Source of the DNA: Loxodes magnus
Taxonomy: Eukaryota; Ciliophora; Karyorelictea; Loxodida; Loxodidae
NCBI GenBank assembly: GCA_946699065.1
Contig: CAMPDV010001937.1
Location: forward strand, 18,850 to 82,849
Direction: 5' to 3'
DNA length: 64,000 nt
In this document: positions 1,210 through 61,353 of the stretch, piece after piece
How positions within the stretch are numbered: the stretch's first letter is position 1
Layout of the letters: every line of letters begins with the position of its first letter
Made by a program: the position numbers and the translations under genes
Notes under the pieces: generated by a model
The model's input: the letters and a program-made list of their open reading frames with translations, nothing else
Told to the model about the DNA's origin: nothing
The model's database searches: none

Positions 1210-3459
1210 TTATAAATTAGTTAGTGATTTATCTAATAATTTTTGCAATAATTTGTTTTATTAAAATGATTATTAATTTGCTTGATTGCTTTTTAAATAT
1301 TATTTAAATTTTAATCTTTTGTTTATAAATTATTTAATCAAAATAATATTATCATCTTATTTAAAAATAAGGGGTTTATTAAAATAATAATAATGAGACT
1401 TAAGTTTAGATAAAGAGAGTTAGTATGATTTAAAGAATATAGAAGATAATATATAGTATACTATTAAACTAAAAGTATTTCTATTATTAATATATTAATA
1501 TATCTTTAATTTTATATACTTCTTAATTAAATTAAAGAAAACTTTCTATTTCACTTAAATTAAAAATCATTAACTGGGAGCCATCAAAGTTTGAATGCCT
1601 TAGAAATTTTTATTAAAATCTTATCTGCATCTAAACTAACTGAGAAACTATTCGGAAAAAGAAAGTTTAAGTCATAAATCTAAAAAAAATTAATGGATAT
1701 TAGAAAGTTAAAATCTTAAGACTTTAAGGATTTACTGAAACTATTGGAAGCTATTTTAATTTGAAAGGGAAAAAGAATTAATTGAGTAGAATAAGTATAA
1801 AGCACTAAAAATATTCGGTAAAAGCAAAATTTAAGATGTTTAAATAAATAGAAATTGTTATAATCGTTTTGAATTTTAATTAGAGATCCAGAGGAATCAT
1901 CATTAGAAAAAATAATTCATTAAATAATTGAAAAATTAGCAAAAATAAATAAATTAAGCTAACTTAATGCCATAAAATGAGCTACAGCCCCCAGTTCTAT
2001 AAATAGAAAGATAAAAATAGAATTTAAAGAAAGATATTTAATGTAATAAAAAATATAGGAAATAAGACATAGATAAAGATAAAGATAAAGACAACTAATA
2101 TGAAATCAATCTAGAGAGTCAATTTTAATTTTCTCTAGTAATATTTTGTTAGCATGTACTGATAGAAAGTAACTGAGGGATTTTTAGCAACTATTTCACA
2201 AAATTATTTAAGATACCTTAAGTTTAAATAAGGATTATAAAATTTACCTTTGGATATTTGCAAAAAGCTTAAGAAATTTATAAAAGATTAAAGCTAGAAT
2301 TTAAATTTTAACTATATTTAACTATTGCTCTTTACAATATTTAAATTATAAACTTTATAAATAATAGATAAAAGAAGTACTAACTATTATATAACTATTA
2401 AATACATTTAATTATAAGGAAATGTCTCTAGCTTAAATAATAAAGTATTATAACTAAATAAAGGAAATTAATAATTAAATTAAAGTTAAAAATAATAGCA
2501 TTAGTAAGCTTAAATATGTAATTTAACTAAGGCTAAATAACTAATACTAAGAAGCTTAGTATTTTAAAATTAACTAATAGATTAAATACTCCTTTCTTAA
2601 GTTAATCTTAATCAATAGATATCTTATATTACCTCAAGTATTTAAATAGTGTCTTAATTTTGGATGTAAGATTGATTAATAGAATATACAAGTTAAACCT
2701 TAATTATTTATGTGATTGGGTCTTAAGAAAGAATTTAAATAAAAATAAGAAATACTTATAAATTTAGAATAACAAACACAAAAATAAAACTTAGAAATAT
2801 TAAAACCTAATTGGTGATTATTATTTCTATAGAGCTAAGATCTTCCTTTAATTTTAAGATTCTTTTTTATTTAAATATATAGTAATACAACTAAATAACT
2901 TTAATTATCTCTTAACTTTAATATTACTCTAAAAATTTGCTTTAGATGTAATCTAGCTTAATAACTTTTTTAATTTTAGTTAATTTTAAAATTCGAAAAT
3001 CAAATAAAAAGGATATTATTCAAATTACAACATAGAAACACTAATCCACAGAAAAAATAAAGACTAGCAACCAATTAGAAAATAATGAAGGGATGAAAGA
3101 TTAATCTTTCTATTTAAAATAATTAAATTGATAGAGGATTCTTAATATATAGTCCATCTGATAGTTTTGCAATTAAATATATTAGAAAGACCCAATCTAA
3201 GTAAAAAGAGCTGGAGCTAAAATAGAATTAGGAAATCAAGAGATGTTTTCTGTGTATTTGCTTCTGATTAATAAAAGATTAAATTACCTTTGATCTCCAA
3301 GAAAAAAAGGAATCTCCCTAAAATTATAATATTTATAGTAATAAAGAGTAGCAAAAGACATTAATTCTGGAACTATATTTCAATCAAAAAATAAGAATAG
3401 GTAAAAAGGATAAGATCTGAAACTTCTAATATGAGCAGAAATAGTTCAGTGACAAAAAG

Positions 3460-14049: not shown

Positions 14050-17000
14050 TTTAGCTTAAATAATAAGCAAAGATAGAATTATTCATTTATCATTAATAGC
14101 TAATCAAGATTTTATTATATGTTTTGATATACTCCTATTAATTATCCAGGAATTAGTTCTAAATGTTAGTAAAAGCCAAAAATTGCTTTCAATGACTCTT
14201 TTGAGAAATTCTCAAGCAACTTTAAAAATTATTTTTAAGAATTTTGGTAAGATTACTATTTTTTGTAGCTTTATTCAATCAAAATGATAAACTAATTTTG
14301 CAGTTTTCAGCCCTTGATTTAATTTAAGCTAGGCTGAAATAATCAAAATATTTGATAAGATCTATTTGATTAAATGCTACGCTTCATTAATTTCTTGAAA
14401 AAATTTTCTAAAGTATCCCTGAGTTCCCAATAAGAATCGAAGTGCCAGGATAATATGATTTTTTTTATTTCATAGAATTTATTTTTTACGCTTTTGATTG
14501 GATTTAATAACTACTAATCTTCTTGAGTTCTTCAAATATTTTATAAAGTTAGTGTCTAATTTTTTTCCACTCCTAGTAATTAAGTCTCTATTTTAGTTGC
14601 AGTATTTAAAAATCTCTCAATTTGTCGTTTCTAAATTTTTTGATAAGTAGTTTTTTTCTGCAGCCTTTATTAAATTTGTCCTAATTGTCATCATTTATAA
14701 TGCCATAATATTCTTATAGTAAACTTGAGTGCTTGTTTAGATTTTCTAGCAGGATATGTTAGAAACCAAACACTTTCCTCTTAGTGAAATTTTCTGTTAT
14801 TTATGTCATTTTTGAGTAAAATTTCAGATATCTTTTAATATATAAGCTCTCAAGCCCTACTAAGTTATTTAGAGTCTAATCAATTGCTTTCTTTTTTTGT
14901 ACTTTTATTTCTAAGGAATATCAATCAAAATTTCTTAGAATTAACTTGCATAAAATTAGCGCACGTTTGAGTTTGAATGCTAAAAGCTCCAATTTAGTTT
15001 AATTTAATCTTCGGGTGCTTTTTTAAAGCTACTGACTATTCAATATTTATTCAAAAAATTTTATTTTTTATGCTAAATTAATAATCCAGATGTTTCTTAA
15101 GTTTATTAAAGAAGCAACAAAGTTTTCTTCTTCCTATTTATAAAGGGACTATTTACATTCGGCAATGTTCTAAAGTAATTACAACCTACCAATTCTATCC
15201 CTAGCACTCAGCACCATGAATCTGTTTTTTTAATTCTTTAGAATTTACACAGAAACTTACAAGTTTCACTTGCGCTTACAATTTTTCCTGTCAAGCTTTA
15301 ATATCACTATCTTTACTAGGCTTTCTCTACTTTATTAATTAGATTTGTACTTTATAAATTATCTTAAAAATTCCAAAATTACTTGTGAAGAATTAAGAAC
15401 ACTTGAAGTCTAGCTTGTTAAAAAAAGAATTGCTTTTCTAATCTCTCTTTAAATTTATTTAAATTTTGCTTCTAAGCTATAAATTATCTCTTAGAATCCG
15501 TTTTCAGCTCTTAATTGTTTTTTAAATTTTATAACTGCTAACTTTTCAGCTTTTATAAAACTAAGCCTCTTTAATTTTTAAGATCAAAAAGCTTGGCAAG
15601 TTCAAGAAGCATCTAAATAAATAATACTTACAGTATTCTTTATTTGCTATAAGATATGCATAAACTCTATTTTTTATGAACTTAATGAGATTCAGTTTAA
15701 TTTAGTATCAACAGGAAATCTTAGTGGTTTTCAGAGTTTTAATTGCTATGGAAAATTCAGACTCTTCTAAAATGTCTCAAAGTTTGACAAAACCTTTGGC
15801 TCTTTCGATGTTTGCTAAGATTAACTCATCTTAAAGTCATTAACTTAATTCTACTCATATTAAAATTTTAGGCCTTATCACCTTTTGCCTTTAAGTATTT
15901 TTTGATCGAAAGATAGTTCCAATCTATTTGCTTTCCTAATCTTTAATACTATAAATATTATACTTTTAAGGAGATGCCTTTTTTTCTTGGAGATCAAAGT
16001 TAACTTAATCTTTGATTAATTAGAAAAAAATGCACTGAAGACGTCTCTAGATTTAATAATTCTATTTTAGCTTTAGCTATTTAACTTAGATTAAACTTTC
16101 CTAGTATTTTTTCAGAGTAAAAGTATTAGATGGGATTTAGAATAAGAATCTTCTATCAATTTAGCTATTTTAAATAGAAAGATTAATCTTTCGTCTCTTC
16201 ATTATTTTCTATATGGTTGCTAGTCTTTACTTTTTGTTGTGAATTAGTGTTTCTATGTTGTAATTTTAATATTATCCATTTTATTTGATTTTAAAATTAA
16301 CTAAAATTAAAAAAGTTATTAAGCTAGATTACATCTAATGCAAATTAATAGAGTAATATTAAAGTTAAGAGATAATTAAAGTTATTTAGTTGCATTACTA
16401 TATATTTAAATAAAAAAGTATCTTAAAATTAAAGGAAGATCTTAGCTCTATAGAAATAATAATCACCAATTAGGTTTTAATATTCTAAGTTTTATTTTTG
16501 TGTTTGTTATTCTAAATTTATAAGTATTTCTTATTTTTATTTAAATTCTTTCTTAAGACTCAACCACATAAATAATTAAGGCTTAACTTGTATATTCTAT
16601 TAATAAATCTTACATCCAAAATTAAGACACTATTTAAATACTATAGGTAATAAATTTATAATAGTTAGTTATATTAGTGATTATATCTATAATTATTTTA
16701 TTTAATTATTCTAACTGTGTATCAAGCATAGTATTTCATATATTTTATTTTAAAATCTTTAGTATCTTACTAATATTTTAAGATAGTTATCAGCTAATGT
16801 AGTTCATTCAATTATTTTAATGGAAATGTGGTTTAATAAGTAAAAATAAATAATATGGTAATAAAATAAATAGTAATAATAGTAATATAAGATACCTATT
16901 GATTAAGATTAACTTAAGAAAGGAATATTTAATTTATTAGTTACTTTTAAAATACTAAGCTTCTTAATATTAGTTATTTAACCTTAGTTAATTTGTATAT

Positions 17001-18360
17001 TAAAGCTTATTAATGCTATTATTTTTAACTTTAATTTTATTATTAGATTCCTTTATTTAGTTATAATACTTTATTATTTTAGCTATAGACATTTCCTTAT
17101 AATTAAATGCATTTAGTAGTTATAGATTAGTTAGTGCTTCTTTTATCTATTATTTATAAAGTTTATATTTTAAAGATTATAAAGAACAATAATTTAAATA
17201 TAGCTAACTTAAATATTTATATTCTGGCATTTATCTTTTTACATTTCTTCAGCTTTTGCAAAATCCGAAGGTAAGTTTTATAATCCTAATTTAAACTTAA
17301 GATATCTTAAATAATTTAGTGAAATAGTTGCTAAAAATCCCTCAGTCACTTTCTATCAGTACAGACTAACAAAATTTTACTAGATAAAATTAAAATTGGC
17401 TCTCTAGATTGATTTCATATTAGTTGTCTTTATCTTTATCTTTATCTATGTCTTATTTCTTATCTTTTATTACAATAAATATCTCTCTTAATTCTATTTT
17501 TCTCTTTCCATTTATAGAATTGAAAGCTGTAGCTCATTTTTATGGTCTTAAATTATTTTTCTTATCATTTTTTGTCACTTTTATAATTATTTAATGAGGC
17601 ATTTCTTTCTTTTTGTGAAGATTTTTCTGAATCTCTAAATGAAATTTAATCTGATTATAATATTTTCTTCTTTTTTATTTTATATTTCTTGATTTTGCTT
17701 TTAGCAAATATTCTTAGTGCTTTATACTTATTCTGCTCAATTAATCTTTTTTCTCTTTCAAATAAAAATAGTTTCAATTACTTCAGTAAATCCTTAAAGT
17801 CTTAAGATTTTAATTTTGTAATATCTGCTAATTTCTTTTAGATTTATGACTTAACTTTCTTATTTGTAAATTATCATAATCATTCTTATTTAATAAGCTA
17901 AGTCGCTAATTCTAATTTTGGAATAGTTTCTCAGTTATTTTAGAGGTAGATAAGATTTGAATTAAAATTTCTAAGGCATTCAAACTTTGATTGCTCCCAG
18001 TTAAGTCTTTTATTTTTTAAATAAAGTGAAATAAGAAGCTTTCTTTTATTTAATTAAGCTGTATATTAAATGAAAGATATATTAATATATTATTAATAGA
18101 AATACTTTTAGTTTAATAACCTATTAATTATTATTTTCCTTTTCCTTAAATTATACTAACTCGCTTTATCTAAACTTAAATCTCATTATTATTATTTTAA
18201 TAAATCCTTATTTATATTAAGATGATACTATTATTTGAATCTAATGTTTATGGTTAGAAGATTTAAATTTAAATAATGTTTGAAAGATAATCAAGCAAGC
18301 TAATGATCTTATTCTAAATAATTCAATAAATTAAAAAATTATTAGATAAATCAAATTTAA
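14050..18360 (-). repeat. Right arm of the large inverted repeat
   Basis: Reverse-complement counterpart of 1,210-5,250. Matching anchors include 17,955-18,003 (with 1,569-1,625), 18,181-18,240 (with 1,320-1,395) and 14,395-14,460 (with 4,860-4,920). Insertions and deletions between the arms are common, which suggests the duplication is not recent. About 8.8 kb of non-repeated DNA lies between the arms. Coding-like frames on the minus strand correspond to those of the left arm. Confidence 0.8.
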
Positions 18361-20172: not shown

Positions 20173-21854
20173 CTTTAACTTAAATATTTTTACTTTGCTT
20201 GAATATTTTAGGTATAATTTATTTTGGTCGATTTATTTAATTCCTCATTTTATTAGATTTTAGGATTTAAGATTATCATCTAGTTTTTAATCATATTAGT
20301 CCTGCTAGCTTATCTTGAATAATTTTAACTAACTTCAATTTTATTTTCTAACAGCAACATCTAGCATTATTAAAAATTAGCCTTAATTTTATCTACTAAA
20401 ATACCTTATAAATAAAGATAATTCTTAGTCTTAAAATCCTAAAGACATGTAACTAAGTTAAAGCTAAAGGCTTATAATTAATTCAGATAAATTATAACAT
20501 TTTTGATTAATAATTTTTAGCTTTATTTTATTCTTATTATATAAGCTAGTCTCTTTATAGTTATTAGAGCTTGTCTTAATTTTAGTTTCAAATAGATTTA
20601 TTAAAATAATTAGAAACTTAATTTTTCTTTAGTTCATTAAGACATTTTATTATAATTGCTAAATTTAGTGAGTATCTGATTAGTAGAAATTAGATAATGC
20701 ATCTAATACAATTTAAATAAATATAACTAGTTAAAATAAGTTTTTCTTTTATCTTATGCTTTACTTTTTATTAAATATAATATATATAATCTTAATTATT
20801 ATTACCTTAATTATAGAAATTATTATATTTTATGCTATTCATATATGATTCTACTATTATTAAAACCTTTATTTAAAGCTTATTTAATAAGAATAATAAG
20901 CTTCTTTTGCTTATTTATTCAATTTTTATGATTAAGAATCTTTAGTGAAAAGAATATATTAAATAGTAATCATTTTCCTTCTTTAACTAATAAAAAGCTT
21001 TTTAGTTTAAATTTATTTTTTGAGCTTAATAAAAAACTGTCTTCTTCAGATTTTATTTTTTAGGGAAGAATTTGTTTTGAAACTAATTATTTATTTTTAA
21101 TTATGTAGAATCTCTTCAATTAGTATTACAATTAGTATTTTAATTATATTATTCAGTTAGGAACTTAAAATACTCTCAGTTAAATAGAAATAAAAGCTTT
21201 TAGACTTAATTATTAGATTTATTTTAAGCTATGTAAAAAATAAGTAAATATCTGGCTATTTTATAAGTTTATTTGGATATCAAATAAGATGCTATCAGCA
21301 AAGCCTATTAAATTAATAAATTTAATGCTTACCATGTATAAATTAGCTGTTTTTTCAATTTGATACTTTGCTATTTATCTACTTATTAGCTTTTTAATTG
21401 TGATTCATTAGATTCTTTTTCTTTTTACTATAGTTAAGAATTAAATCTATTTAATAGACTTAATTTAAAACTAGCTAATTTTAATTAGTTTTAGGTTATA
21501 GAGTTAGAGTATAAAATGATTTAATTATTAATTATTTAGACAATTAGCTTTTACAGTTATAGAAGATAAAGCTAATATTAATTGATTTTATTTAATGTTT
21601 TATATAATTTAAGGTATTTAAGAGAATTTAGTCTTTAAAATAATAAAATGTTTACTGGAATTTGCAATTCCAATTGCTATCTTTTCAGTTAAGTTCTGAG
21701 AAACTATCAAGGTTTTCAGTAATAAAGCTAGACGAATTAATTCTTAAATTCACATATTCTTTTAATCCGATTTGGTTCGCCTTTCTTTATGAAGACGATT
21801 AATAGCAATCAAAAGATACTAGAAAGGGATGAACGCTAAACTACAAGTAATTAA
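20173..21854. other. AT-rich stretch, no gene seen
   Basis: No recognisable protein or RNA in about 1.7 kb. This is the 5' flank of the NACHT gene. Confidence 0.4.
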
Positions 21855-24730
21855 ATGAATGAATATGAATAAAAGAATCATAAAGAGAGTTAAACTTTCC
21901 TAGATTCATAAGATGAACAAGTTCCAAATAATTAGATAAAGATCTCTTTATAGTAATCTCAACAATTTGAATATTATAACTTCCTTCAAAACATTTCTTA
22001 TTTTGCTGATTCAAAAAGGCATGCAATTACAAAGTGCTATAATAATTAAATGAATCTTATAGATTAAAAAATTAAGCTTATTTCTAATAAGAGAGATAAG
22101 CTAAATATTTAGAAAAGAATGAAGCTAAAAGGAGGAGATTGTTGTGGTTCTCAGGATAAAAAATTTAAAGATAAGTAGAGTAATTAGCCAGTATCAAAAT
22201 AAGGGTTAAGCAATGATAAAAGTTAGAAATATCAAGAAAATGAGCAAATTTTTGATAATAAGGAACAAAAGATTTATCAAGAAGGATTTTAGCTCTTAAA
22301 AGAAGGTTTGAATGAATAAAAGATGGATAAAGTTCTACAAGGAATTCAAACAATTCAAAAAAAAAAGTTTGCCAATATCAATGATCCATTAGTTCTTATA
22401 AAACAATTCATTAAAATTATTTCCCATAAGTATGCTGAAGGATGGTCTTTGCTTTTGAAAGAGTAGCTTGTACGAAATCTTCCTGAGTTATTGGCTATGT
22501 TTCTTTAGAAGAACGAGTAAAACTCCTTTATAAACGAAAAAACAAAAGAAGAGCTCATTTTAAAAATAAATGATAGCTTAAAGTTAGTAAATAAAAATAA
22601 AAATAGGATTGGAGGTCCAGAACTAGATTTTTACTTAAGATTTAGTTTGATGATTCTGGAGAATATTCCAGATAGCAAACAAACCGAATATTTTGGAATT
22701 CTATGTAAGATTTTAAAAGTTGCTTAATGAATAATTGCCTTGACGTTTGGAGTTGGAGTTATAGGGTCAGAAGCGATCTCTATTATAAAGGAGTTTTTCT
22801 TATGAGGAAAAGGTTGGGTAAATTAGAAGCTCAACTATAAAAAGATTATTAGATTACGAGTCCTAGATGCTCTTGTATGTGATTTAGTGAGACAATACTC
22901 AAAATAAAATTTTTATCAATTTTGAGATATTGTTTTGAAAGAAAAAATAAACTTAAGATTTAGAGCGTGTTTTCTTCTGAAGCACATGATAATAAACTCT
23001 TAAGCAAATAAAGAATTGATAGAAGACTCATGTAAGCTTTTAGAAAAACTATGTGACGACAAGGATTGATAGATAAGGTACTACACATTGAAGACATTTT
23101 TTGAATTGACCTTAGAAAACAATTAAGCAGCTTGCACTTATAAGGAAAGAATATTTAAATAAAAAAAGAGAATTTAAGCTAAAATGTAAAAGAGCGTTAG
23201 TTAATTATTGAATTACTAATGAATCCAGAGCATGTGGTTTAGTTTACTTAAACAATGGAAGAGAATTGACTTGCGTTGAAGGGAATAAGCAGCAGTATTT
23301 ATGAAGATATGATAAGATACTTAAAAGGTGAGGTTTAGAAGAAGTAAGAATATTACGTAAGTTTACTTTGCGCACCTAATCCTAACTCATAAGCTGAGGA
23401 TGATCTTGACCTTGAAGTTTTGTAAATTTTTAGAAAACGATTCTAAGACAGGATTATTACTTCTGGGAGATTCCGGTTCTGGAAAGTCCTTGTTCCTGAA
23501 GATTTTAGCCTTAAAATGTCTAGACTAGAAACATGAATACTTATCCATATATGTGTATCTCCCAACTATAAAAGCATTCGAAGACAAATTAATAGAATCT
23601 GCTTTAAATAATTATTAAATAGAAAGAAATGAGACTTTGAAATTTAGAAAGATTCTGTTCTTATTTGACGCGTATGATGAGTTGGGAGAATGCAAGGCTA
23701 TTATCAGTAGTAATAAATTAAAACAAAAATATCCTCAGGCAAAATATATAATAACATGTAGGGTAAATTATGCCTTAAAAAAAAAATTACCAACATTATT
23801 TTGCACCATACAGAAGCGAAAGAGTCTAATTATAAGAGTTATAGGAACTGTATATAAAGCCATTCGATATCTTTTAGGTAGAAAAATATATAGAAAAAGT
23901 CCTATTTAAGAAGAACCAGTAATAATAAAGTGCAAGTCAAGTGGAAGCATCGAGATGATGGCATTAATATAGAGAATACCTGGTCTGAAAGAAATTATCA
24001 GTAATCCCTTTCTGCTATATATTTGTTTGGGTGAGGAAGAGATATTAGATTATTTAAAAAGTGGTTAAGTAGTTTAAAAGTCTAGAATATATGAGATTTT
24101 CATAGTTTAGTGAAACAAAAGAACCTAAGAAAAATTGTAAAATCAGGGTTTAAAAAGTAAGGTGCTAAACTAGTAAATAAAGTTGTTTGAAAGTATCTAA
24201 GTGAATGCGGCATGGGAAATGTTACAGAGTTCAGTGGAGATATCAAGCTTTGATGAAGTGAATCAAAAGTGGATAGAGTAGTTTACGGACGATTAAAACC
24301 ATTTAGGGTGTTTGATATAGACAAAGGAATAGAATAATAAAAAGAGGTTTGAGTTTATTCATGCGTCGATAAGAGATTACTATGTGGCAAAGAATATTAT
24401 AGATTTAGTTTCATCCGCTAAGGCATAAGCAATAGAGATTGACACAATATAAATAAATTTTTGATAGTAGACAATCTGGAGATACTATAGTTTGTGAGAG
24501 AGATTTATAATTCAAATTCTGCGAATAATAATTCAAGTGTGTAATAAAATCTATTGGAGATAGTGGGAATGTCCAGTACTAATGTTTCTTTATAAATAGC
24601 GGCAACTAATAGTATAACGATATTTAATTGGATATATTACTAATTTACATCTTTGGATCTATCGGGTATATGTGTGTCCGAAATTAAAAATTCTAGACAG
24701 ATGAGCTTGAAGTGGCTGATTAAATAGTGA
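21855..24730 (+). pseudogene. NACHT-domain NTPase gene, damaged
   Basis: From ATG at 21,855 one frame is open for 291 codons and then continues, with a few TGA codons, to the NTPase core at about 23,430-23,780. The core has a Walker A motif (GDSGSGKS, 23,469 on), a Walker B-like segment (ILFLFDAYDELGE) and the sensor-like ITCR. Further NACHT-type motifs follow: NPFLLYICL and FIHASIRDYYVAK. The frame stops at 24,462; a pentapeptide-like piece (SLDLSGICVSEI) follows in another frame to 24,730. The N-terminal ~450 residues look helical. Damage: TGA at 22,728, 22,797, 22,927 and 23,068, several where tryptophan would fit, and two compensating frameshifts between about 23,170 and 23,430. NACHT proteins are STAND-class NTPases acting as signalling switches; in ciliates the domain is often joined to pentapeptide and WD40 repeats, which are missing here. 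A pseudogene is the simplest reading, unless TGA is sense in this organism. Confidence 0.8.
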
Positions 24731-25200
24731 TAAACCACCAAGCAGAGGTTAGGAAACTGAGAAAGGATAATGAGAAGCGAATGGTAAAACTCAGCCTAGC
24801 GGAAGGAATAGAATCGATCTTATGACTTGAGAAAGAGAACTAAGACCATCATAAAAAAAAAATCAAAAAACATAATAAAAAATTCCGAAAAAAAAATTAG
24901 CTAAAAAATAAAAAGATCAAAAAAATAGACTGGAAAAACTAAAAAGAAGCTAGACAAGCGCAGAAAGTAACATTCTATAAAAAAAAGAGAAGTAAAAGAA
25001 AAGGAAGATAAGACAAAAAAAGTGAAGAAATGATACTTTCGCGATTCGAAAGAAATCTGAGTGAAGAAGCTGCAAAAAATTCTATGATCAAATAAGTACA
25101 AAAGAAAAAGAAAAAGAACATAAGAATAAGGTGGAAAAAAAGCAACTGAGAAAATAAAGAGAAAAAAGTATCTGCGATAAAGGATTTAATAAAAAAGATA
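24731..25200. other. Purine-rich tract
   Basis: For about 450 bp the plus strand is dominated by A and G, with lysine/glutamate-type codons in every frame. It directly follows the broken end of the NACHT gene. No frame is convincingly coding; it may be a decayed coiled-coil sequence or simple-sequence expansion. Confidence 0.4.
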
Positions 25201-28594: not shown

Positions 28595-28771
28595 TCAATT
28601 TTTCATCAATAAAGTGAAAAAATCAAGAAAGTTAGCAAAGATCTTGAAATATAAGGCTAATATGTTTAGTAACTTTAAAATAACTAAAGTATCTAAATTA
28701 GAAATTAATTAATAATTAAGTATTAATTTAAGATAAATATTTAAAGTTGTTAAATGTTTTTTCAATCTCTG
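28595..28771 (-). CDS. Putative last exon of the micro-exon gene
   Basis: After the last AG the exon-1 frame stays open for 58 codons to TGA at 28,597-28,595. The peptide starts QRLKKHLTTLNIY and becomes strongly hydrophobic (LKLLNILALYFKIF), a possible membrane segment or amphipathic helix. In the +1 phase the same DNA also has an open frame to TGA at 28,625-28,623 with a more hydrophilic product (EIEKTFNNFKYL). That phase would avoid the TGA codons of the array but requires a frame change near 32,600. The DNA alone does not decide between the two. Confidence 0.4.
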
Positions 28772-31700
28772 CTTATATCAAAAATTACCCTCTATAATCA
28801 AAAACTTACTTATCATTAAATTATTTACATCCTAAAATAGAAAAATAACTACCTAGTATAAATAATCTAATATTAATCATTACTACAACATTCTTTAATC
28901 AATTATATTAGGCATTACTTTCTTTTCAAATCAATCATTACCCCCTATAAATATTAATAATATTACATTCTATATCATTTTATTACTAACTTAGGTTAAA
29001 TAATACAAACTCATATAAGCAAATACTAGCTTCAATAAAATCAAAACCATCTTATAATTATTTCTTACAATCAAAAATTAAAAAGGTACCTGAAGTAGAT
29101 TCTTACCGCCTGAGGTAATTTATTACCCTCTTATAATAATAAAAAATACCAGCTATAATAGTTTTTAAATACAAACTGTCTATAAAAAATATTTTACATT
29201 CTATAAATTTTTAAAATATCTTACAATCTATAAATATTTAAAATATCTTACTCACTATAAATATTTAAAATATCTTACTCACTATAAATATTTAAAATAT
29301 CTTACTCCCTATAAATATTTAAAATATCTTACCATCTATAAATATTTAAAATATCTTACTCACTATAAATATTTAAAATATCTTACTCCCTATAAATATT
29401 TAAAATATCTTACCATCTATAAATATTTAAAATATCTTACCATCTATAAATATTTAAAATATCTTACTCCCTATAAATATTTAAAATATCTTACTCACTA
29501 TAAATATTTAAAATATCTTACTCACTATAAATATTTAAAATATCTTACTCACTATAAATATTTAAAATATCTTACTCACTATAAATATTTAAGATATCTT
29601 ACAATCTATAAATATTTAAAATATCTTGCCCGCTATAAATATTTAAAATATCTTACAATCTATAAATATTTAAAATATCTTACAATCTATAAATATTTAA
29701 AATATCTTACAATCTATAAATATTTAAAATATCTTACAATCTATAAATATTTAAAATATCTTACAATCTATAAATATTTAAAATATCTTACAATCTATAA
29801 ATATTTAAAATATCTTACTCACTATAAATATTTAAAATATCTTACTCACTATAAATATTTAAAATATCTTACTCACTATAAATATTTAAAATATCTTACT
29901 CACTATAAATATTTAAAATATCTTACCATCTATAAATATTTAAAATATCTTACCATCTATAAATATTTAAAATATCTTACAATCTATAAATATTTAAAAT
30001 ATCTTACCATCTATAAATATTTAAAATATCTTACCATCTATAAATATTTAAAATATCTTACCATCTATAAATATTTAAAATATCTTACCATCTATAAATA
30101 TTTAAAATATCTTACTCACTATAAATATTTAAAATATCTTACTCACTATAAATATTTAAAATATCTTACTCACTATAAATATTTAAAATATCTTGCCCGC
30201 TATAAATATTTAAAATATCTTACTCACTATAAATATTTAAAATATCTTGCCCGCTATAAATATTTAAAATATCTTACTCACTATAAATATTTAAAATATC
30301 TATAAATATTTAAAATATCTTGCCCGCTATAAATATTTAAAATATCTTACTCACTATAAATATTTAAAATATCTTACCATCTATAAATATTTAAAATATC
30401 TTACCATCTATAAATATTTAAAATATCTTACCATCTATAAATATTTAAAATATCTTACCATCTATAAATATTTAAAATATCTTGCCCGCTATAAATATTT
30501 AAAATATCTTACTCACTATAAATATTTAAAATATCTTGCCCGCTATAAATATTTAAAATATCTTACTCACTATAAATATTTAAAATATCTTGCCCGCTAT
30601 AAATATTTAAAATATCTTACTCCCTATAAATATTTAAAATATCTTACCATCTATAAATATTTAAAATATCTTACTCCCTATAAATATTTAAAATATCTTG
30701 CAATCTATAAATATTTAAAATATCTTACTCCCTATAAATATTTAAAATATCTTACTCACTATAAATATTTAAAATATCTTACTCCCTATAAATATTTAAA
30801 ATATCTTACCATCTATAAATATTTAAAATATCTTACCATCTATAAATATTTAAAATATCTTACTCCCTATAAATATTTAAAATATCTTACTCACTATAAA
30901 TATTTAAAATATCTTACTCACTATAAATATTTAAAATATCTTACTCACTATAAATATTTAAAATATCTTACTCACTATAAATATTTAAGATATCTTACAA
31001 TCTATAAATATTTAAAATATCTTGCCCGCTATAAATATTTAAAATATCTTACAATCTATAAATATTTAAAATATCTTACAATCTATAAATATTTAAAATA
31101 TCTTACAATCTATAAATATTTAAAATATCTTACAATCTATAAATATTTAAAATATCTTACAATCTATAAATATTTAAAATATCTTACAATCTATAAATAT
31201 TTAAAATATCTTACTCACTATAAATATTTAAAATATCTTACTCACTATAAATATTTAAAATATCTTACTCACTATAAATATTTAAAATATCTTACTCACT
31301 ATAAATATTTAAAATATCTTACCATCTATAAATATTTAAAATATCTTACCATCTATAAATATTTAAAATATCTTACAATCTATAAATATTTAAAATATCT
31401 TACCATCTATAAATATTTAAAATATCTTACCATCTATAAATATTTAAAATATCTTACCATCTATAAATATTTAAAATATCTTACCATCTATAAATATTTA
31501 AAATATCTTACCATCTATAAATATTTAAAATATCTTACTCACTATAAATATTTAAAATATCTTACTCACTATAAATATTTAAAATATCTTGCCCGCTATA
31601 AATATTTAAAATATCTTACTCACTATAAATATTTAAAATATCTTGCCCGCTATAAATATTTAAAATATCTTACTCACTATAAATATTTAAAATATCTTAC

Positions 31701-33237
31701 CATCTATAAATATTTAAAATATCTTACCATCTATAAATATTTAAAATATCTTACCATCTATAAATATTTAAAATATCTTACCATCTATAAATATTTAAAA
31801 TATCTTGCCCGCTATAAATATTTAAAATATCTTACTCACTATAAATATTTAAAATATCTTACCATCTATAAATATTTAAAATATCTTACCATCTATAAAT
31901 ATTTAAAATATCTTACCATCTATAAATATTTAAAATATCTTGCCCGCTATAAATATTTAAAATATCTTACTCACTATAAATATTTAAAATATCTTGCCCG
32001 CTATAAATATTTAAAATATCTTACTCACTATAAATATTTAAAATATCTTGCCCGCTATAAATATTTAAAATATCTTACTCCCTATAAATATTTAAAATAT
32101 CTTACCATCTATAAATATTTAAAATATCTTACTCCCTATAAATATTTAAAATATCTTGCAATCTATAAATAATTAAAATATCTTACATTCTATTTTAAAT
32201 AGAAATACCATCTTATTTTAAGATTTACCTCCTTTATTTGTTTTTTTTACTTGCTATATATTAAATAATTTACTTTCTGGATTTGTTAAATTACCAACTT
32301 AACATAATTATTTTACAATCTTTTTTATTATATACATTCTATATTTAATTATTACTCCCTTTCTTAGTATTCTTACAATCTTATTTATTTTATTACATTC
32401 TTAAATTTTATTTATTACTTTCTAGTTTTTAAAGTATTACTCACTTTTGTTAAATATATTACACACTTTTTTAAAATTTACCTCCTATACATTTATTTCT
32501 AACTTTTTTCGAAGTCATTTTAGCCTTTTTTAAATTTCTTATTTTCTCCTATTTTTGATTATTTAATGCTTTCTAATTTTTATTATTATTTACATTCTAT
32601 TATTATTATATTTACCATATTATTTTCTCATTATCTCGAAAACTAATTTTTTATTAATTACTTTCTATCTTTATTTTTTACCTCCTAAATCTTATTTTCT
32701 CACCTCCTTAAATTTATATTAATTACAAGCCTTCAATTTTAATTCTAGCTAAGCCTCATCTCTATTCTCCATTTTATTTATTTTATGCTAACTATCTAAT
32801 TTTTCTTATCCTCTATAAAGTTCATAAAAATCAGCGTCAATTCCTTCTAGTCTTTCTACTTTTTATTTCAGTTATTCAATTGTTTCTCCTTCCTCTACTG
32901 TTAAGTTTATCTCTTCTTCATTTTCACTTAAAATCTTGACTTTTATTAGTTTCGGTTTCTGCTAATAAGATAGTTCAATTTTAGTTTCTTCAAGATGAAG
33001 TTATTTATATTCTTATTTACTTTCACTTGATTAGCCCTTTTAGCTTATTAAACTTTTTGGATCATTGAATGAAACTTTTCTACAATTTCTTTTTGGGCAC
33101 TGACTAGAACCCTCTTTTAAGTATTCTTCAAGAATACAAATTTGGCATACTTGATGTCCACAAGGAAGGGTTACGGGAATTCGTATTGAGGAGTCGAAAT
33201 GAACTAAGCATGAGCTGCACCTGTTAGATTCAGCCAT
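28595..33237 (-). CDS. RING-UBL gene with 149 mini-introns and one-codon exons (model)
   Basis: Whole-gene model, read downward on the minus strand. Exon 1 (33,237-32,704) encodes a RING finger and a ubiquitin-like domain. Then come 149 intron-like segments: 21 before the 27-bp array, 110 in it and 18 after. All start GT or GC and end AG. They separate 145 exons of exactly 3 nt and three of 27, 45 and 21 nt; the final exon is 28,771-28,595. Lengths tile both flanks exactly (514 and 429 nt). Every internal exon is a whole number of codons, so the frame leaving exon 1 reaches the last exon unchanged, giving 412 residues. That frame holds 37 in-frame TGA codons, 35 in the array, so it is productive only if TGA is read as sense. 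RING proteins are usually E3 ubiquitin ligases. Motifs, lengths and spacing are seen; splicing itself is inferred. A bare tandem repeat beside an unrelated RING gene is the alternative. Confidence 0.6.
28772..29200 (-). other. Downstream series of 18 divergent mini-introns
   Basis: This 429-nt stretch divides exactly into 18 intron-like segments (14-26 nt, plus one of 37 nt), seventeen 3-nt exons and one 21-nt exon. Donors are GTAA, GTAT, GTTT or GTTA; acceptors TAG, AAG, CAG or GAG. The 21-nt exon reads VPFQFLI in the exon-1 frame. None of the triplets is TGA. The one segment needing an assumption is the 37-nt one, which contains an internal TAG. As upstream, sequence and length vary while ends and 3-nt spacing hold. 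Confidence 0.65.
29201..32189 (-). repeat. 27-bp tandem array, 110 units plus one 19-bp unit
   Basis: 2,989 bp equals 110 units of 27 bp plus one shortened 19-bp unit near 30,295. On the minus strand each unit is a variable triplet followed by 24 nt starting GTAAGATATTTT and ending TTTATAG. Hand count of triplets: TGA 35, ATG 31, ATT 19, CGG 14, GGA 10, AAT 1. All 14 CGG units and two ATT units have GCAAG instead of GTAAG. Apart from that, the 24 nt vary only in a few units (near 29,595, 30,990, 29,207 and 32,170). Read unspliced, two of the three minus-strand frames are open, one giving nonapeptides around KIFQIFI. Read as introns, each unit is a 24-nt GT-AG or GC-AG intron with a one-codon exon. 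Confidence 0.95.
29591..32170 (-). repeat. Higher-order 1,396-bp duplication within the array
   Basis: The rare variant unit at 29,591 recurs at 30,987, a spacing of 1,396 bp = 51 x 27 + 19. After each copy, going up in coordinate, unit types follow nearly the same order: one CGG, six ATT, four TGA, two ATG, one ATT, a run of ATG, and so on to the rare ATT/GC-donor unit at about 30,690 and 32,156. The second copy lacks the 19-bp unit and differs by a few units in run lengths. This shows segmental unequal exchange on top of single-unit turnover. Confidence 0.85.
32190..32703 (-). other. Upstream series of 21 divergent mini-introns
   Basis: Read downward, this 514-nt stretch divides exactly into 21 segments of 16-21 nt that begin GT (one GC) and end AG. 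They are separated by eighteen 3-nt exons, one of 27 nt (32,642-32,616) and one of 45 nt. From the eighth segment onward, 14 segments in a row are spaced by exactly 3 nt. Most start GTAA; ends are TAG, AAG or CAG. The sequences differ from one another and from the 27-bp core, so shared ancestry by recent duplication does not explain the constant ends and spacing. The 45-nt exon reads EKIRNLKKAKMTSKK in the frame of exon 1. The 27-nt exon contains one in-frame TGA. Confidence 0.7.
32704..33237 (-). CDS. RING finger plus ubiquitin-like domain protein (exon 1)
   Basis: ATG at 33,237; 178 codons to the first intron-like donor. Residues 7-52 form a RING-HC finger with ligands C7, C10, C26, H28, C31, C34, C47 and C52 (core motif LPCGHQVCQIC). 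Residues ~97-165 align with ubiquitin along their length: a first strand LIKVKILSE, then TIEQLKQKVERLEGI matching ubiquitin's helix and the conserved EGI, then LYRGQEKLD and a closing strand LELKLK. Known role of such parts: the RING recruits a ubiquitin-charged E2, and the UBL contacts proteasome or ubiquitin receptors. If nothing is spliced, the frame runs to TGA at 32,515, giving about 240 residues with a basic tail. The UBL ends a few residues before the first donor, so the splice array sits after a complete domain. Exon 1 has no interruption, which suggests it is functional. Confidence 0.85.
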
Positions 33238-44289: not shown

Positions 44290-47192
44290 ATAGTTTTTTG
44301 ATGTCTTTAATTGCAAGAATTGCTTCTTTCTATTCATCTTTAGCTTCTTCCTTTTTTGCTTTCTCCATTTCTAGAATCTCAAGTCTCCTTGTCATTAACT
44401 ACTTATGAAATATTTTGATCTATAAGTCTAAATACTCCAATTTAGACCTTGAAAATGAGTTTAGATATTCTTGATCGTATAGTATAAGGCGCCTTAAGTC
44501 ATAATTTCCGATCTTTTCCGATAATCAATTCATTATATTAGAATAGTACACACATTTAAAGATATACTCGAAAGTTTCATATTCTCCATACATACAAAAG
44601 GGATTATCAATGGGGTAATGACGATCTTAAAGATCCTTACGGAAATTATAAGTTTAGGTTCTAAGCTTATATATACTGATAATTTCTCGCCTGTACTATT
44701 TGTTTAATTTAGTATAAGTAATTTGTGGAAATTGTTAAAGATTACCAAATTATTCAGTATATACTTTAGCTGTTTTCATCCTCATAAATTTTTTAGTAGC
44801 TACTTTGTAGAAATATTGTTGTATTTTTTCTCTTACATGTTTAGTAAAAGTTTTAAGATTGGTATTATTCTATTAATTCTGCAGATCGATATTATAAAGG
44901 TCTGATAATTGCTACACTTAATCGTAGTATTGAAATCCTTTTTTCCATATATTAATGAAAAGAGAGCCTATTGTTTATCTTGGAAAATCAGTACTTTCTT
45001 ATTTAATTTTATGGTAGAATCTGAAGAATTTTATAGCCATAATGTGCTTAAAGGGTAATCAATTCAGGTCTATATAACATGATTCATTAAATGTTAAAGT
45101 TGCTACTTAAAAAGCTTTTCTTGAAATTAATCTCATGTTTGATTCTATTCTGTTCAAAACTCCAGTTACTCCTTTTTGAATACTTCATGGTACTAAGTCT
45201 CCTCAATATTCTGCTTTAGGTAATGTAAAAAGTCTACATAAAGTTTTAAAATGTCAAGGAGTTACATTCTTATATCTCATCAGTTAAAAAACAGCTTTCT
45301 TCATTGCAGCTATATATTTGAATGCAACTTCTTTGCAATGGGGATTTAAGTTCTTCTTCTAATGTAGAATAACTCCTAAATATGTTACTTGTTCTTTTTA
45401 AGCAATTGGTTAATTTCCTAATTATAAATTTAAAATTTATTATTTCTGATTCTTCTTTAGAAATTAGATGCATTCGGATTTGGTAACATTGATCTTTAAA
45501 TGTGTTCATGCAAAAATTTTATTTGCTTCATTTATTAAATTCTACATCTACTTTGCAGATTTGGAAAGAAGAATAAGATCATCTGCCCATCCTCTACAAG
45601 CGAAGCTAATACTTGAATCCTGGCATTTAAATCCTAATTAGTTACTTTTACTTTCCAGATATCTAATTACTATGTCATAATACAATAATGCTAAAACTGG
45701 TCCATGAGAACTTCCTTACATAACTCCATTGTTGAATTATAAAGTTCTGGTGCTCTTACCATCTATGATAAATGAAGAATTTAGGTTTTTATAAAACGAT
45801 TCTAATGCTATTATTATTCCAAGTGGTAGTTTAACTCTCTTAAGTTAATCAAACAAGAGTCTTCTTTCTATTGAGTCAAACATTTTTTCAACGTCTATCA
45901 GTGTTGCTATCAATTTAGTCTTACCTTTAGCACATTTCCGATAGTTATCAATTATTTGTTATATTATTCAAATTTATTAAGTTGCTTATCTGTTTTTCAT
46001 AAATCCCATTTATGAAGGGTGAATCAAATTTCTCTAATAAATCAGATTGTATAGTCTTTTTGTTAAAGCTTTATCATATAGTTTTAGAATAGTATTAATA
46101 AGAGAAATAGGTAGTCAGTTTTTCCAATCATCTTTATTTCCTTTTTTAAATATTGGAATTATCACCGATATATTTAATTCCTAAGGGATTCTTCCAAGTC
46201 TTAGCATATTATTCAGAAAAGAATGAAGAATTATTAATAAATATTATCCACCATATTTCAGAAGTTCGCCTTTTATTCCATCTGGACCAGCTGCTTTTCC
46301 ATTCGGAATTTCTTTTATAATTTCTTATATTTATTTTATGGTAAAAAGATCAAATCCTTACAAATACTAGAGTGGATAATCTTTAATTTCTTAAATATTA
46401 TCGTATATTTTATCTATTTTTTAATTACTAAGATTTATCTATTCTTGAGTTAGATTAGAATGCTTGTTAAAAACACAATTTTCCCATGATTCAATTAATT
46501 TATTTTTGATTTCTTAATTAAAGTTCATAGTATTTCTCTTCAAAGGATTTAGAATTTTCTTAGCTTGTGAAAAAATTTCCTTAAAATCTCCATTAAGAAG
46601 TAGAAATTTCTTTTTTGCTTTGTTTTTTTTTAAATTTTCATAGATTATACTTGAAGTCTTTCCAAAGTCGTTTTGCTTCCTCATGAAGATTAGTTACTTG
46701 ATAGTTTATTCTTCCAAATTTTATGTGAGCTTCCTTATATTCTGAGTTAGCTCTTTTTTCCTCTATATATTTCTTTGTGAGAGCTCGAGGAAGTTTGTTA
46801 TAATTTGAGTCTAGAATAAACGAACCTAATGTTTGATCAGCATTTAGTTATTCATAAGCTAAATCTTTAACAGCTTAACTTTTTCCACTATCAGACATGT
46901 AACAAGACGTGATTAAAATATTATTCAGTTTAATTGTTATGAATCTATTTATTTCTTTTTCAACTTATATATGTATTTCTGTACTATTCAATTCTTCTCC
47001 TACAATTAAGCATACACCTCCTCCTTTTCCTGAGTTCTTAAAATATGTTTTAAATCCATTTATCAATATTGGAGGAAAGTCATCTTTTTATCAGGTTTCG
47101 TTTATTGATAAAATATCTATACTGCTATCTCTGATAAATTCTTCAATATTCAAGCACTTGCTCGCTATTCCATTAATATTTATATGTCCCAT
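44290..47192 (-). mobile_element. LINE ORF2: endonuclease, reverse transcriptase, zinc end
   Basis: ATG at 47,192 begins an APE-type endonuclease start (HININGIASK, then DILSINET at about 47,110). The endonuclease is short: only ~185 codons to TGA at 46,638, with no catalytic C-terminal half seen. The reverse transcriptase follows in another frame: GKAAGPDGIKGE (about 46,265-46,300), a fingers motif LPISLINT, GFMKNRQAT, MQGSSHGPVLA (about 45,700) and the catalytic WADDLILLS (about 45,570). A third frame gives the C-terminal zinc-like segment NPFCMYGEYETFEYIFKC (44,550-44,610). TGA codons fall where tryptophan is expected (47,091; 46,115; 45,506). The chain is that of a non-LTR retrotransposon, like the germline REP elements known from Tetrahymena. 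This copy looks inactive: at least two frameshifts and a shortened endonuclease. Confidence 0.9.
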
Positions 47193-57567: not shown

Positions 57568-58149
57568 GCTATTAAGTAAAATTAATTTTTGGTTAAATTA
57601 GTATAATTTAATTAAAAATCTTTTATTTTAAAACGAATAAATCATAGATCTCTTATTTTAAAGCAGTTTGCTTATAGCTAAAACTTAAAATCTACATGGA
57701 TAGTACATTTAATTTAATTTCATAAATATGATAGATAATTTGTAAAATATAAAGAAAATTAAGATTAGCATATTTTTCTTATCTTTAAATTAATTAAAAG
57801 GATATAAATTTTAAATTTTATGTTTTGATCATAATGTACTTATAAGCATAATTAATAAAGAAATAATTTAAATATTTAATTATATTTAAGGTAAGTAAAG
57901 AAAACTATTTAGATTTATAAATTGCTTTAATTAAAAAATTATTAAAGTATCTTTTCAAATTAATAATGGAAAATTAAGAAAAACTATTTATTAAAAGTAT
58001 TTTTATGGAAACTCTTAAGACAAAGAAATGCTTTCCTAGGCAGGATAACTCTTCTACTTTTTAGAAATCCTACCCAGCTGGTGTTTTTTTAATACTTGCA
58101 AATAAATCAACTATGATCAACTAATGATAATTCATTAATATTTTAGACT

Positions 58150-59035
58150 AAATATTGAATGACATTAGGGTTCAATTTTATCGGTGTCAGTAACAAATGA
58201 ACTGAAATAAATCTTATCAGGAAGTTTTGATGAGACAATAAAGATATGGAACTTTACAACTGGCTAGTTAAAGAGTATTTTGGTAAGGACAATATTTCTG
58301 TATTTTCTGTAGCGATATCAAGTGACTAGAAATGAATTGTATAAGGTAGTGTTGATAATGCCATTAAAATATGAGATTTTACAACTGATTAGTATACAAG
58401 TACTTTGTAAGGACATACTAGTTCTGTATTTTCTGTATTTTTTTTCCTCTAAAAGTTACTGAATCGTATCGAGTAATTCTGATTATACGATAAAGATATG
58501 GAACTTTACAACCGGTTATTGTAAGAATATTTCGTAGGGAAAAAAATTTTATATTATCTGTAGAAATATCAAATGACATGAAATGAATCGTAGGGTTAGT
58601 GGTGGATGAGGTTCTGATAATGTAATAAAGATATGAGACTTTACAAATGGCTATTTAAAAAGAGTTTTGAGAGGACATAATTATTATTTAATTTCTGCAG
58701 CGATATCAAGGAACCAGAAATGAATCGTATCAGGAAGTTTAGATTATACGATAAAGATTAGGGATTTCTCATCCGGTCAATTAATCAAACTCTTAAGGGT
58801 CATTCAATTGGTGTATCAAGTATTCAAATTAGTAATGATTCAAGTGTAATAATTTCTGGATCTAATGACAGAAAAATAGGATATAGACTCCAGTTCGTTT
58901 AATGCATATAGACTCTTTAGGGACACTGATAGTATATTCGAACTTTAGCATTGAGTAAGGACAATAGATAAATAGTATCTGGAGCCGAGAACAATAAGGT
59001 GAGAAAGTGGAAGATAGCGAAATGAGAGAAATTAT
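58150..59035 (+). pseudogene. WD40-repeat gene fragment, decayed
   Basis: At least five WD40 blades are visible. Blade ends read IKIWNFTTGQLKS (about 58,240), AIKI-stop-DFTTDQ (58,360), TIKIWNFTTGYC (58,490), VIKI-stop-DFTNGYL (58,625) and TIKIRDFSSGQL (58,750). A later one ends VRKWKIAK (about 59,010). In two blades the WD tryptophan is TGA (58,372 and 58,634); in one it is AGG. Several frameshifts separate blades. WD40 propellers are protein-interaction platforms and in ciliates are often the C-terminal part of NACHT proteins. A NACHT gene lacking its WD40 part lies on the same strand at 21.9-24.7 kb. No start or upstream domain is visible here. Confidence 0.8.
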
Positions 59036-61353
59036 ATATTTTTAAACTTTAGACTTTACAATTTAAGAAGTTAATTATTAACATTAGGTAAAATTTACTA
59101 AACATTTAAGTTAGGTATTAAAATTCTAAAGAACTATACGTAGTTAAAATTATTGATCTTTAATCAAGGTTAAAGATTATAGTTAAGTATAAAGGTTTTT
59201 TAAGATTGAGTGATTTAATATTGAAGAGTTTTAAAATAAAATAAAGATTTTACAATTTAAGTTAGCTAACCTTTATAAAATAAAGTATAAGTTTGAGATA
59301 TTTATAATTTTTATCTTAAAAGCAATAGCTTAGAAATTATATATATTTAAGTGTTTGAAATGAAAGTATTAATTGGCTAGATTTTTTTAATGGTAAAAAA
59401 GAATAATTTATCTTTTTGAAGTAAATAACGATTGTTATGTTAAAAATTAGTCAACTTTTATAGGCCTCTTTTCTTAGAATTTTACACTAATGAACATTTT
59501 TATGATGTAATTAAAAATAAATTTTAAATTTTTTAAGAAAAAATTTTATTTAATTTTTATAATTTATTTTATAATAAAAATTAAAAAAATGAAAGTTTTT
59601 TATTTAATTAAAATATTTAATAGCTTATTTTTTGAATCTTAAATGATTTAATTCACTATTTTAATTTATATTAATTTTTTTCCTTAAATATTTTACTTTT
59701 TTAATGAAATTTTAAAATTTCTAAAATCTAATATAAATTTAATTATTTAATTTATTAAAAAAATAATTATTTTAATCATTAAAATTTATTAAACTTAAAT
59801 TCATTAAAAAAATAATAAGTTAAAAACATAAGAAAAATAGCTAGTTTTTTTATTAAATTAAAAGAATTGTTTTTTGCTCAATGTTTACTAGTGGAAGACA
59901 TTTTAGAGACTGGTTAATATTTTAAATTACTGGATAAAATAAAGGAAGTTGGGGAAATAAATTATATATATAAATTAAAGTATGATTTAGTGGTAAATTT
60001 TATAAAAAAAATTAAAAAAGCTTAAGGATAAGAATTAAAATTTTAAAGTTTTTATACTATCAAAATTAAAAACGAAAAGAAATTCTGTAATTCTTTTATT
60101 AAAAATAATATTATAATAGTACGATTTCATTTAATTTAGATAAAGAGGATTTAAAAATCAATAGAAAAAACTAAAAAATAAAAATTTGCTTTTTGCTATT
60201 CGTTTTATTCTAGACAAGATTTTGAGGACATAACTAAAAAAATTTATTTTCAAAATAAAAAATAGAAGTTATAATTAAAATTATTATAAATTATATAATA
60301 ATAGTGCTAATTTTATTTAAAAAAAATTTATTAAGAAGAATTATAAACAGTTTACTATTAAAAAAAATTTAATTAGATAAATCAGATCTTTTTTGCAATA
60401 TGTTTTTATTATGGAAAAATTAAAATTTATAAAAGATCAAGTTCAAAATTTTTATGTCAATATTATTTTAATTTAGAATATAAAAATTAAAAAGCTAAAG
60501 GGAATATAAAATTTTAGCAATTGTAAAAACTAAATATAAGAAATAGTAAAAATTTGCTTTAATGATAAATAAAATAACTTAAAAATTTGAAAATTATTTA
60601 AAAGCAATTAAATATTTAACAAATTATCAAATATTTTAATTCATTTTTCAAAATTGATTATGGAATTTTTCGCACTTTGAAAAAAATAAAAAAGTGAATA
60701 AATAAAGTTAAAAATTATATCTTAATTTAATCAATTTATAGAAAAAATTGTAATTCTCTTTAAAATAATTTTTTAGTGCTGATCATTTGAATAAAGAAAG
60801 ATAAAAGTAGTACATATTAAATTGCTTTATTTTTTACATTTATTCAAATAAAAAATGCTCATTTAAAAATGAAAAATTTTATAAGTATTCATTTTATTTA
60901 ACTTTATAAATAAATAAAAAAATTTTATTATAGAGCGCGTAGCATACCGTTGGTGCGCAGCTTTTTATAATAAAAGCATTAACATTTAAATTAAAAAAAT
61001 TTCTAAAAATTAAATAAAGAATTAACTAAATAAAACTTAAAATGTTTTAAATAAAAAAATAACATTAAAAAATAAATTTACTATAAATTATTCATAAAAT
61101 TAACAAAATTGTAATACTTTATAAAAGAAAAAATTAAAATAAATATAAAGTTAATAAATTTTTAAAGTTAAAAAATAACAAAAGGAAGAAGCAATAAAAT
61201 AAAAAATAAATGATCTAATATCGCATTTGCAACTGAAAAAGGAATAAAGTAAGCTAACTCTTGATTGCCTAAAATTATTAACATAATGTAAAATTAATTA
61301 ATTAATGAACTAAGACAAAATAAGATAGATATTACCATAACATATGAATTGGG
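59036..61353. other. AT-rich stretch with a small GC-rich hairpin-like patch
   Basis: No gene recognised. At 60,932-60,965 a short GC-rich patch (gagcgcgtagcataccgttg...tgcgcagc) stands out in very AT-rich DNA and has partial inverted symmetry. Confidence 0.4.

Follow-up and report, generated by a model that had tools for sequence, protein, structure and literature searches.

The window analysed here, a stretch of 64,000 nucleotides (nt) from the ciliate Loxodes magnus (assembly GCA_946699065.1, contig CAMPDV010001937.1, positions 18,850 to 82,849 of the forward strand), carries on its minus strand an exon for a RING finger and a putative ubiquitin-like domain (RING-UBL), followed by a long array of tiny segments with intron-like ends that are nearly always exactly 3 nt apart. 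Judging from sequence, this is very probably an L. magnus protein-coding gene in which the tail of the protein is encoded by a spliced array of 3-nt phase-1 exons, and the gene is presumably transcribed and its array spliced. The following features were distinguished at the locus.

32727..33237, minus strand: exon 1, 511 nt (170 codons plus 1 nt), with the RING finger and the putative ubiquitin-like domain (open in translation table 6; Pfam)
33079..33219, minus strand: RING finger, residues 7-53 (Pfam zf-C3HC4, PF00097)
32731..32949, minus strand: putative ubiquitin-like domain, residues 97-169 (Pfam ubiquitin, PF00240; phmmer)
32190..32726, minus strand: 5' flank with 22 different predicted introns of 16-21 nt, 3-nt exons and exons of 27 and 45 nt (gene model, paralogues)
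32549..32569, minus strand: predicted GC..AG intron (5' end GC in the window copy and in L034 and L036, but GT in the remaining 14 copies)
32525..32542, minus strand: 18-nt intron position whose 5' splice site is lost in the window copy (AT for GT; paralogues)
29201..32186, minus strand: homogenised core with 110 predicted introns, 109 of them 24 nt and one 43 nt long, and a 3-nt exon after every intron (gene model)
30281..30323, minus strand: fused 43-nt segment, with loss of one exon and of the next 5' splice site (core comparison)
28893..29197, minus strand: 3' flank with 13 different predicted introns of 17-26 nt, 3-nt exons and one 21-nt exon (gene model, paralogues)
28772..28889, minus strand: terminal introns, exact structure uncertain (gene model)
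28623..28771, minus strand: probable last exon, with a TGA at 28623-28625 that would end it if the phase-1 frame holds (gene model)

Architecture of the array and chance expectation

Under a fixed gene model, the minus strand after exon 1 tiles into 149 segments that start with GT or GC and end with AG, of which the core holds 110, the 5' flank 22, the 3' flank 13 and the terminal end four; 148 of them are 14-43 nt long and one has 58 nt. Exactly 3 nt is the length of 145 of the 148 internal exons, the remaining three having 27, 45 and 21 nt, which bears out the 149 segments and 145 exact 3-nt gaps that had been read from this DNA in an earlier note (the original prediction). A model blind to both frame and exon length placed 3-nt exons in 139 of 149 cases. 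The flank introns are mutually unlike in sequence, and the triplets of the core are chiefly ATG, TGA, CGG, ATT and GGA. The segment at 28832-28889 contains an internal AG/GT and is best read either as two directly abutting introns or as a single intron of 58 nt, which makes the 3' end of the gene less certain. The sequence at 32525-32542, with its 5' splice site lost in the window copy, stays within the 45-nt exon. An early model that permitted introns within exon 1 produced spurious introns there and was discarded. Neither Rfam families (at the gathering threshold) nor tRNA genes were found in the window.

Whether such runs are common at this base composition, a question that the original prediction had left to shuffling, can be answered for the flanks, where the chains lie far beyond chance. 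The longest chain of segments with 3-nt gaps comprises 15 segments in the 5' flank and nine in the 3' flank, while 1000 dinucleotide shuffles of each flank yielded at most four and reached the observed length in none. Other gap lengths within 1-12 nt gave chains of one or two (GTA starts), the opposite strand chains of zero to one and the remainder of the window a maximum of three, and no chain of four or more was found in 12 unselected loci of 10 kb. The model blind to frame and exon length assigned 3 nt to 18 of the 20 exons in the 5' flank (shuffle mean 0.2) and to 11 of the 16 in the 3' flank (shuffle mean 0.3), as against 54 of 3,293 exons on both strands of the 12 unselected loci. Five unselected loci (L019, L021, L022, L023 and L024) consist largely or wholly of different tandem repeats, whose units measure roughly 93-285 bp.

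Paralogous copies, splice ends and the homogenised core

The window gene is one member of a large RING-UBL family. The genome, with 7,843 contigs and 705,730,643 bases in total, contains 26,346 exact matches (13,098 + 13,248) to the 24-nt core intron and none to its reversed sequence, and all eight loci fetched from core-intron matches proved to be paralogues of the RING-UBL gene. Exon 1 has at least 151 matches genome-wide, and almost every one in the list is a full-length open frame; scoring covered 150 of 2,656 first-look candidates, so there may be further family members. Some contigs carry two to seven gene copies tens of kilobases apart, mostly in the same orientation. On contig 156, seven copies in one orientation lie 64-116 kb apart, which suggests very large repeated units, and copies equidistant from the contig start on contigs 505/1364, 514/1404 and 1878/2250/3628 are perhaps haplotype or assembly duplicates. 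Position 34470 was considered as the edge of an element, but the break there is common to the window copy and L011 while six other copies continue, so that it is not an edge of the family. Two core units were sought in viral contigs, with no match.

Comparison of these paralogues strongly supports a spliced gene with about 145 3-nt exons, as far as sequence can speak to splicing. In an alignment of 17 copies that spans exon 1 and the array as far as the core, and in which the 5' part of the array contributes 407 nt of introns and 108 nt of exons, 33 distinct indel patterns (not fully independent of each other) all fall in introns and none in exons, where about 8.8 would be expected at an equal rate. 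As many as 27 of the 33 are of only 1-2 nt, so that an unspliced reading frame cannot hold. All 357 exon blocks of the 5' flank have lengths that are multiples of three, as do 94 of 96 in the 3' flank (eight copies; L015, which gave no alignment there, was left out). Among the 389 flank introns of the 17 copies, the 5' end is GT in 377 and GC in five, and the 3' end is AG in 383; alignment shifts account for several of the exceptions. Of the seven 5' ends that are neither GT nor GC, three belong to L015, a copy with a broken exon 1, and at least one of these three is such a shift. Divergence in the flanks amounts to 0.090 in intron interiors, 0.026 at GT, 0.019 at AG and 0.132 in the 3-nt exons.

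The core tells a similar story about its splice ends. Over 521 core units from nine loci, AG changed once in 1038 bases and the first G in three of 521 units, compared with 4.5% at positions 6-22; the second base changed 43 times, 21 times to C (giving GC..AG) and 22 times to A. In the window, 109 of the 110 core introns have a length that is a multiple of three, as against six of 35 flank introns, and none of the 109 would bring in a phase-1 TGA if retained, so that an unspliced core intron adds eight residues and no stop. The 24-nt rule is not strict, because 23-nt units occur in other copies. The core contains a duplicated block of about 50 units with the same order of triplets, including a rare ATATCT intron; the core thus also grows by kilobase-sized duplication.

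Core introns and core triplets differ sharply in their variability. Within the window core, introns differ by 0.003 per site and triplets by 0.60 per site, and over the nine loci triplet diversity is 0.51-0.69 regardless of an intron divergence of 0.003-0.204, whereas introns and triplets of the flanks evolve at similar rates. The contrast reflects either diversifying selection on codons or homogenisation of the introns without the exons.

These observations also bear on a reading in which the array is translated unspliced as a nine-residue repeat (KIFQIFIDG-like), which we hold to be very improbable. Read with table 6, the 27-nt unit contains no stop, giving open reading frames of 1088 and 706 residues, retained core introns carry no TGA, and some units of L012 do seem exonised (20 exons of 30 nt under the frame-blind model). 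Flank introns, however, differ by 1-6 nt among copies, core units of 25 or 26 nt occur 63 times, and the 43-nt unit breaks the frame, which is preserved only if that segment is removed as a single intron; a protein repeat would also leave the near-invariant AG unexplained.

Loxodes introns have GT..AG ends, and those of the array, together with their length of ~16-25 nt, fit the spliceosomal introns of L. magnus; the exceptions in length are 14, 26, 43 and 58 nt, one of each. Introns supported by RNA sequencing in this species have a mean of 19.3 bp and a mode of 17, 93% are 25 bp or shorter, and those with lengths divisible by three are depleted, according to the accessible part of the genome paper (PMC11441545). 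Excision at the DNA level, as internal eliminated sequences rather than by RNA splicing, is an exceedingly remote alternative for the array. Ciliates other than Loxodes do excise many short DNA segments (PMC11441545), but the assembly agrees with the macronuclear genome, i.e., the post-excision state, and the same source describes no canonical sequences of this kind for L. magnus; the insertions that it did find favoured TA-containing repeats, while the array segments have GT..AG ends.

Exon 1, reading frame and predicted product

Exon 1 is without a frame-breaking indel in 16 of the 17 copies, and with the broken copy L015 dropped its non-synonymous (dN) and synonymous (dS) divergences are 0.081 and 0.199 (dN/dS 0.41); purifying selection acts on this exon. 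Its RING finger scores 24.2 bits with PF00097, above the cut-off of 21, other RING models staying below their cut-offs, and the last cysteine pair is spaced CxxxxC as judged by eye. The putative ubiquitin-like domain scores 23.1 bits with PF00240, just below the cut-off of 25.4, and in a phmmer search exon 1 matched single chains of ubiquitin, RUB1 and NEDD8 (E 0.0017-0.01). No homologue of exon 1 at E<=0.01 was found among 72 candidates in the protein collection. An AlphaFold prediction of exon 1 from the single sequence was too poor (mean confidence score, pLDDT, 41) and was not used. The domains suggest a ubiquitin ligase with a variable tail; the layout would resemble that of RING-type ubiquitin ligases with a ubiquitin-like domain, with the RING finger and the putative ubiquitin-like domain both in exon 1, and the difference lies in a tail that would be derived from the array.

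Because the 511 nt of exon 1 leave one base over, all array introns are phase 1, and each codon straddles two triplets, taking its first base from the end of one and its other two bases from the start of the following one. Triplets are therefore not codons, and the proposal that each triplet adds one codon is true only as a count, while the 3-nt-exon splicing that it presupposed is strongly supported by the paralogues. The product of about 412 residues in the original prediction has to be shortened to about 343 or 395, depending on whether translation stops at an earlier TGA, at an AAT/GAT junction, or at the TGA at 28623-28625. With the intron positions of the family, the phase-1 tail reads WGEIFEIMRKQYEQRESQNDFEKRVLKKYWKYFETRD in the window, with variants in 16 other copies; with the lost splice site respected, the window tail contains ..EQRENKKFKKGQNDFEK... 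In most copies a conserved segment near W.EIFEIMRKQYEQRESQNDFEKRVLKKYWKYFETRD is followed by the variable core stretch and then by a conserved end, LIFDYAIFKWE in the window and LIFDYATFKWE or near variants in seven other copies.

The leading W of the tail (residue 171) is encoded by TGA in all 17 copies, and we infer that this TGA is read as tryptophan. In L. magnus UGA means Trp or stop (PMC11441545). The standard ciliate code with TGA always a stop was dropped as an assumption because in-frame TGA codons occupy Trp-like positions of a reverse transcriptase and of WD40 repeats elsewhere in the window. The former, at 45100-46855 on the minus strand, is a non-LTR (long terminal repeat) reverse transcriptase with several such codons (RVT_1, E 7.8e-27 with TGA as Trp), a domain present some 2,700 times in the genome (PMC11441545); the latter, at 58000-59200 on the plus strand, are decayed-looking WD40 repeats in two frames with TGA where WD40 usually has Trp. 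At 21231-24900 (plus strand), a frame with several in-frame TGA contains a NACHT-like NTPase domain just below the Pfam cut-off. The open reading frames at 2119-3033 (minus strand) and 16338-17597 (plus strand) share peptide stretches and seem to be an inverted, diverged duplicate.

Alternatively, the protein could end at the conserved TGA of the exon 1/2 junction, the array being a spliced or unspliced 3' untranslated tail, which we consider unlikely. TGG is never seen at this position although neighbouring codons vary, and codon statistics do not settle the frame: the ratio of non-synonymous to synonymous differences (pN/pS) is not decisive, as its intervals overlap among the phases. Nothing in an untranslated tail, however, would keep exon lengths at multiples of three as they are in both flanks, and hardly any exon indel is seen across the 521 core units. 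The 3' untranslated regions of L. magnus also average 53 bp, and its UGA is Trp when far from the poly(A) tail, as given in the accessible part of PMC11441545. Counted over the array exons of 16 copies, TGA makes up 3 of 592 codons in phase 1, fewer than the 24 of phase 0 and the 55 of phase 2, although shared ancestry inflates these figures.

Several observations weigh against a translated, spliced phase-1 array. The junction TGA of the 17 copies could be a stop. Values of pN/pS are 0.75 (0.40-1.35) in phase 1, 0.54 (0.36-0.88) in phase 0 and 0.76 (0.49-1.25) in phase 2, and variability per triplet base (0.114, 0.138 and 0.159) slightly favours phase 0. In-frame TGA in the core numbers 4 against 6.9 expected (fraction 0.11), so that avoidance is not clear. 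The two 3' flank blocks whose length is not a multiple of three lie in L010 and L013, and one block counted as a multiple of three is an exon missing in L013. One 5' splice site is lost in the window copy itself, and in L012 23 of 127 units are not GT/GC..AG, 18 of these being one GA variant. A spliced retrocopy, sought genome-wide with one 38-nt spliced pattern (up to three mismatches), was found 0 times, as against 118 matches of the unspliced control. In L012 (contig 80), the intron variant with GA for GT has seemingly been absorbed into a 30-nt exon and amplified about 18-20 times.

If the gene is indeed a spliced array of triplet exons, the spliceosome would remove ~149 tiny introns, each probably recognised individually as an intron, and join 145 3-nt exons. 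Since all array introns are phase 1, skipping any number of 3-nt exons leaves the frame intact; a skipped exon would cost one residue, and a retained 24-nt core intron would be neutral for the frame and free of TGA. Such tolerance of errors could let the unit of intron plus triplet (24 + 3 nt) multiply like a satellite within the gene, at one residue per copy.

Arrays in other genes and known systems

A generic pattern (three GTAA starts and two TAG ends with 3-nt exons) matches the genome 30,205 times and its reversal 663 times, and arrays unlike that of the window were found among the matches listed (100 places, up to contig 16). On contig 16, in a gene unrelated to the RING-UBL family, a kinase domain (PF07714, E 3.2e-17) leads into an array (L037, 1560-4760) modelled with 130 introns and 93 3-nt exons, compared with a mean of 3.1 and a maximum of nine 3-nt exons in shuffles; 121 of its 129 exons are multiples of three, about 21 exons have zero length (AG/GT; shuffle maximum 9), and the introns in its 3-nt runs are all distinct (89/89). 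Contig 10 holds a distant RING-UBL-like gene (ubiquitin domain 27.3 bits, cut-off 25.4; RING 14.1 bits, below cut-off) with 81 of 99 exons of 3 nt (shuffle mean 2.2) and 84 of 86 introns distinct in its 3-nt runs, and contig 4 a diverged member of the RING-UBL family with 57% identity and 111 of 125 exons of 3 nt. The modelled regions of L037-L039 were picked by eye.

That nearly all introns of the kinase and contig 10 arrays are distinct means that the layout needs no tandem repeat and is no satellite artefact. A non-coding satellite whose unit by chance starts with GT and ends with AG is thus a highly unlikely account of the window array. Tandem repeats do make up 231-359 Mbp of the L. magnus genome (PMC11441545), and the core is a 27-bp tandem repeat of 111.7 copies; the units of a satellite should, however, be alike along the whole array, which holds for the core and not for the mutually unlike introns of the flanks, nor for L037 and L038. 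The intact upstream coding exon under constraint and the nearly invariant AG likewise speak against it.

The additional arrays allow a broader proposal, which we put forward tentatively as a possibility rather than as the probable course of events: Loxodes may possess a whole class of "triplet-exon" genes, comprising the RING-UBL family, the kinase and probably further genes, in whose tails introns spread until they interrupted almost every codon, some exons being reduced to zero length. Introns would be homogenised or copied independently of the exons, one-codon exons would be free to become hypervariable, and the spliceosome would act as a codon-by-codon assembler.

Isolated 3-nt microexons of animals and plants demonstrate that the spliceosome can include a 3-nt exon; to our knowledge, these are single, between ordinary exons, and do not form arrays. 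The nearest known relatives in design would be the micro-exon genes (MEGs) of Schistosoma, by analogy of layout: their coding region consists largely of tiny symmetrical exons, which mostly have lengths divisible by three and can be skipped without loss of frame, and their products are variable (accessible parts of PMC10526429, PMC4350168). MEGs differ in having 10-20 exons, mostly of 15 bp (range 6-81, or 3-81 as given in an abstract), and introns of 100 to almost 5000 bp (PMC10526429, PMC4350168), compared with 145 exons of exactly 3 nt and introns of 14-58 nt (mostly 16-26) here; in the RING-UBL family, moreover, the intron itself is a tandem repeat. The tiny introns of Loxodes, Stentor and other ciliates are likewise AT-rich, 15-25 nt long and, in Stentor, of the GT..AG type, but runs of intervening 3-nt exons are not described in the accessible parts of the sources (PMC11441545, PMC9505925). 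No genes with arrays of 3-nt exons were found in the open-licence literature, most subscription papers and preprints being outside that search.

If the array is spliced, the gene would define how small the exons of an entire gene region can be and raise the question of how the spliceosome handles 3-nt exons about 145 times consecutively. The intron would also be the repeating unit of a tandem array able to expand inside a gene nearly free of cost, and we know of no description of intron gain by such a route. Gene finders that impose lower limits on exon or intron length would overlook such genes or treat them as repeats to be masked. Provided that splicing takes place as proposed, the layout of this L. 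magnus gene would extend the known limit of gene fragmentation.

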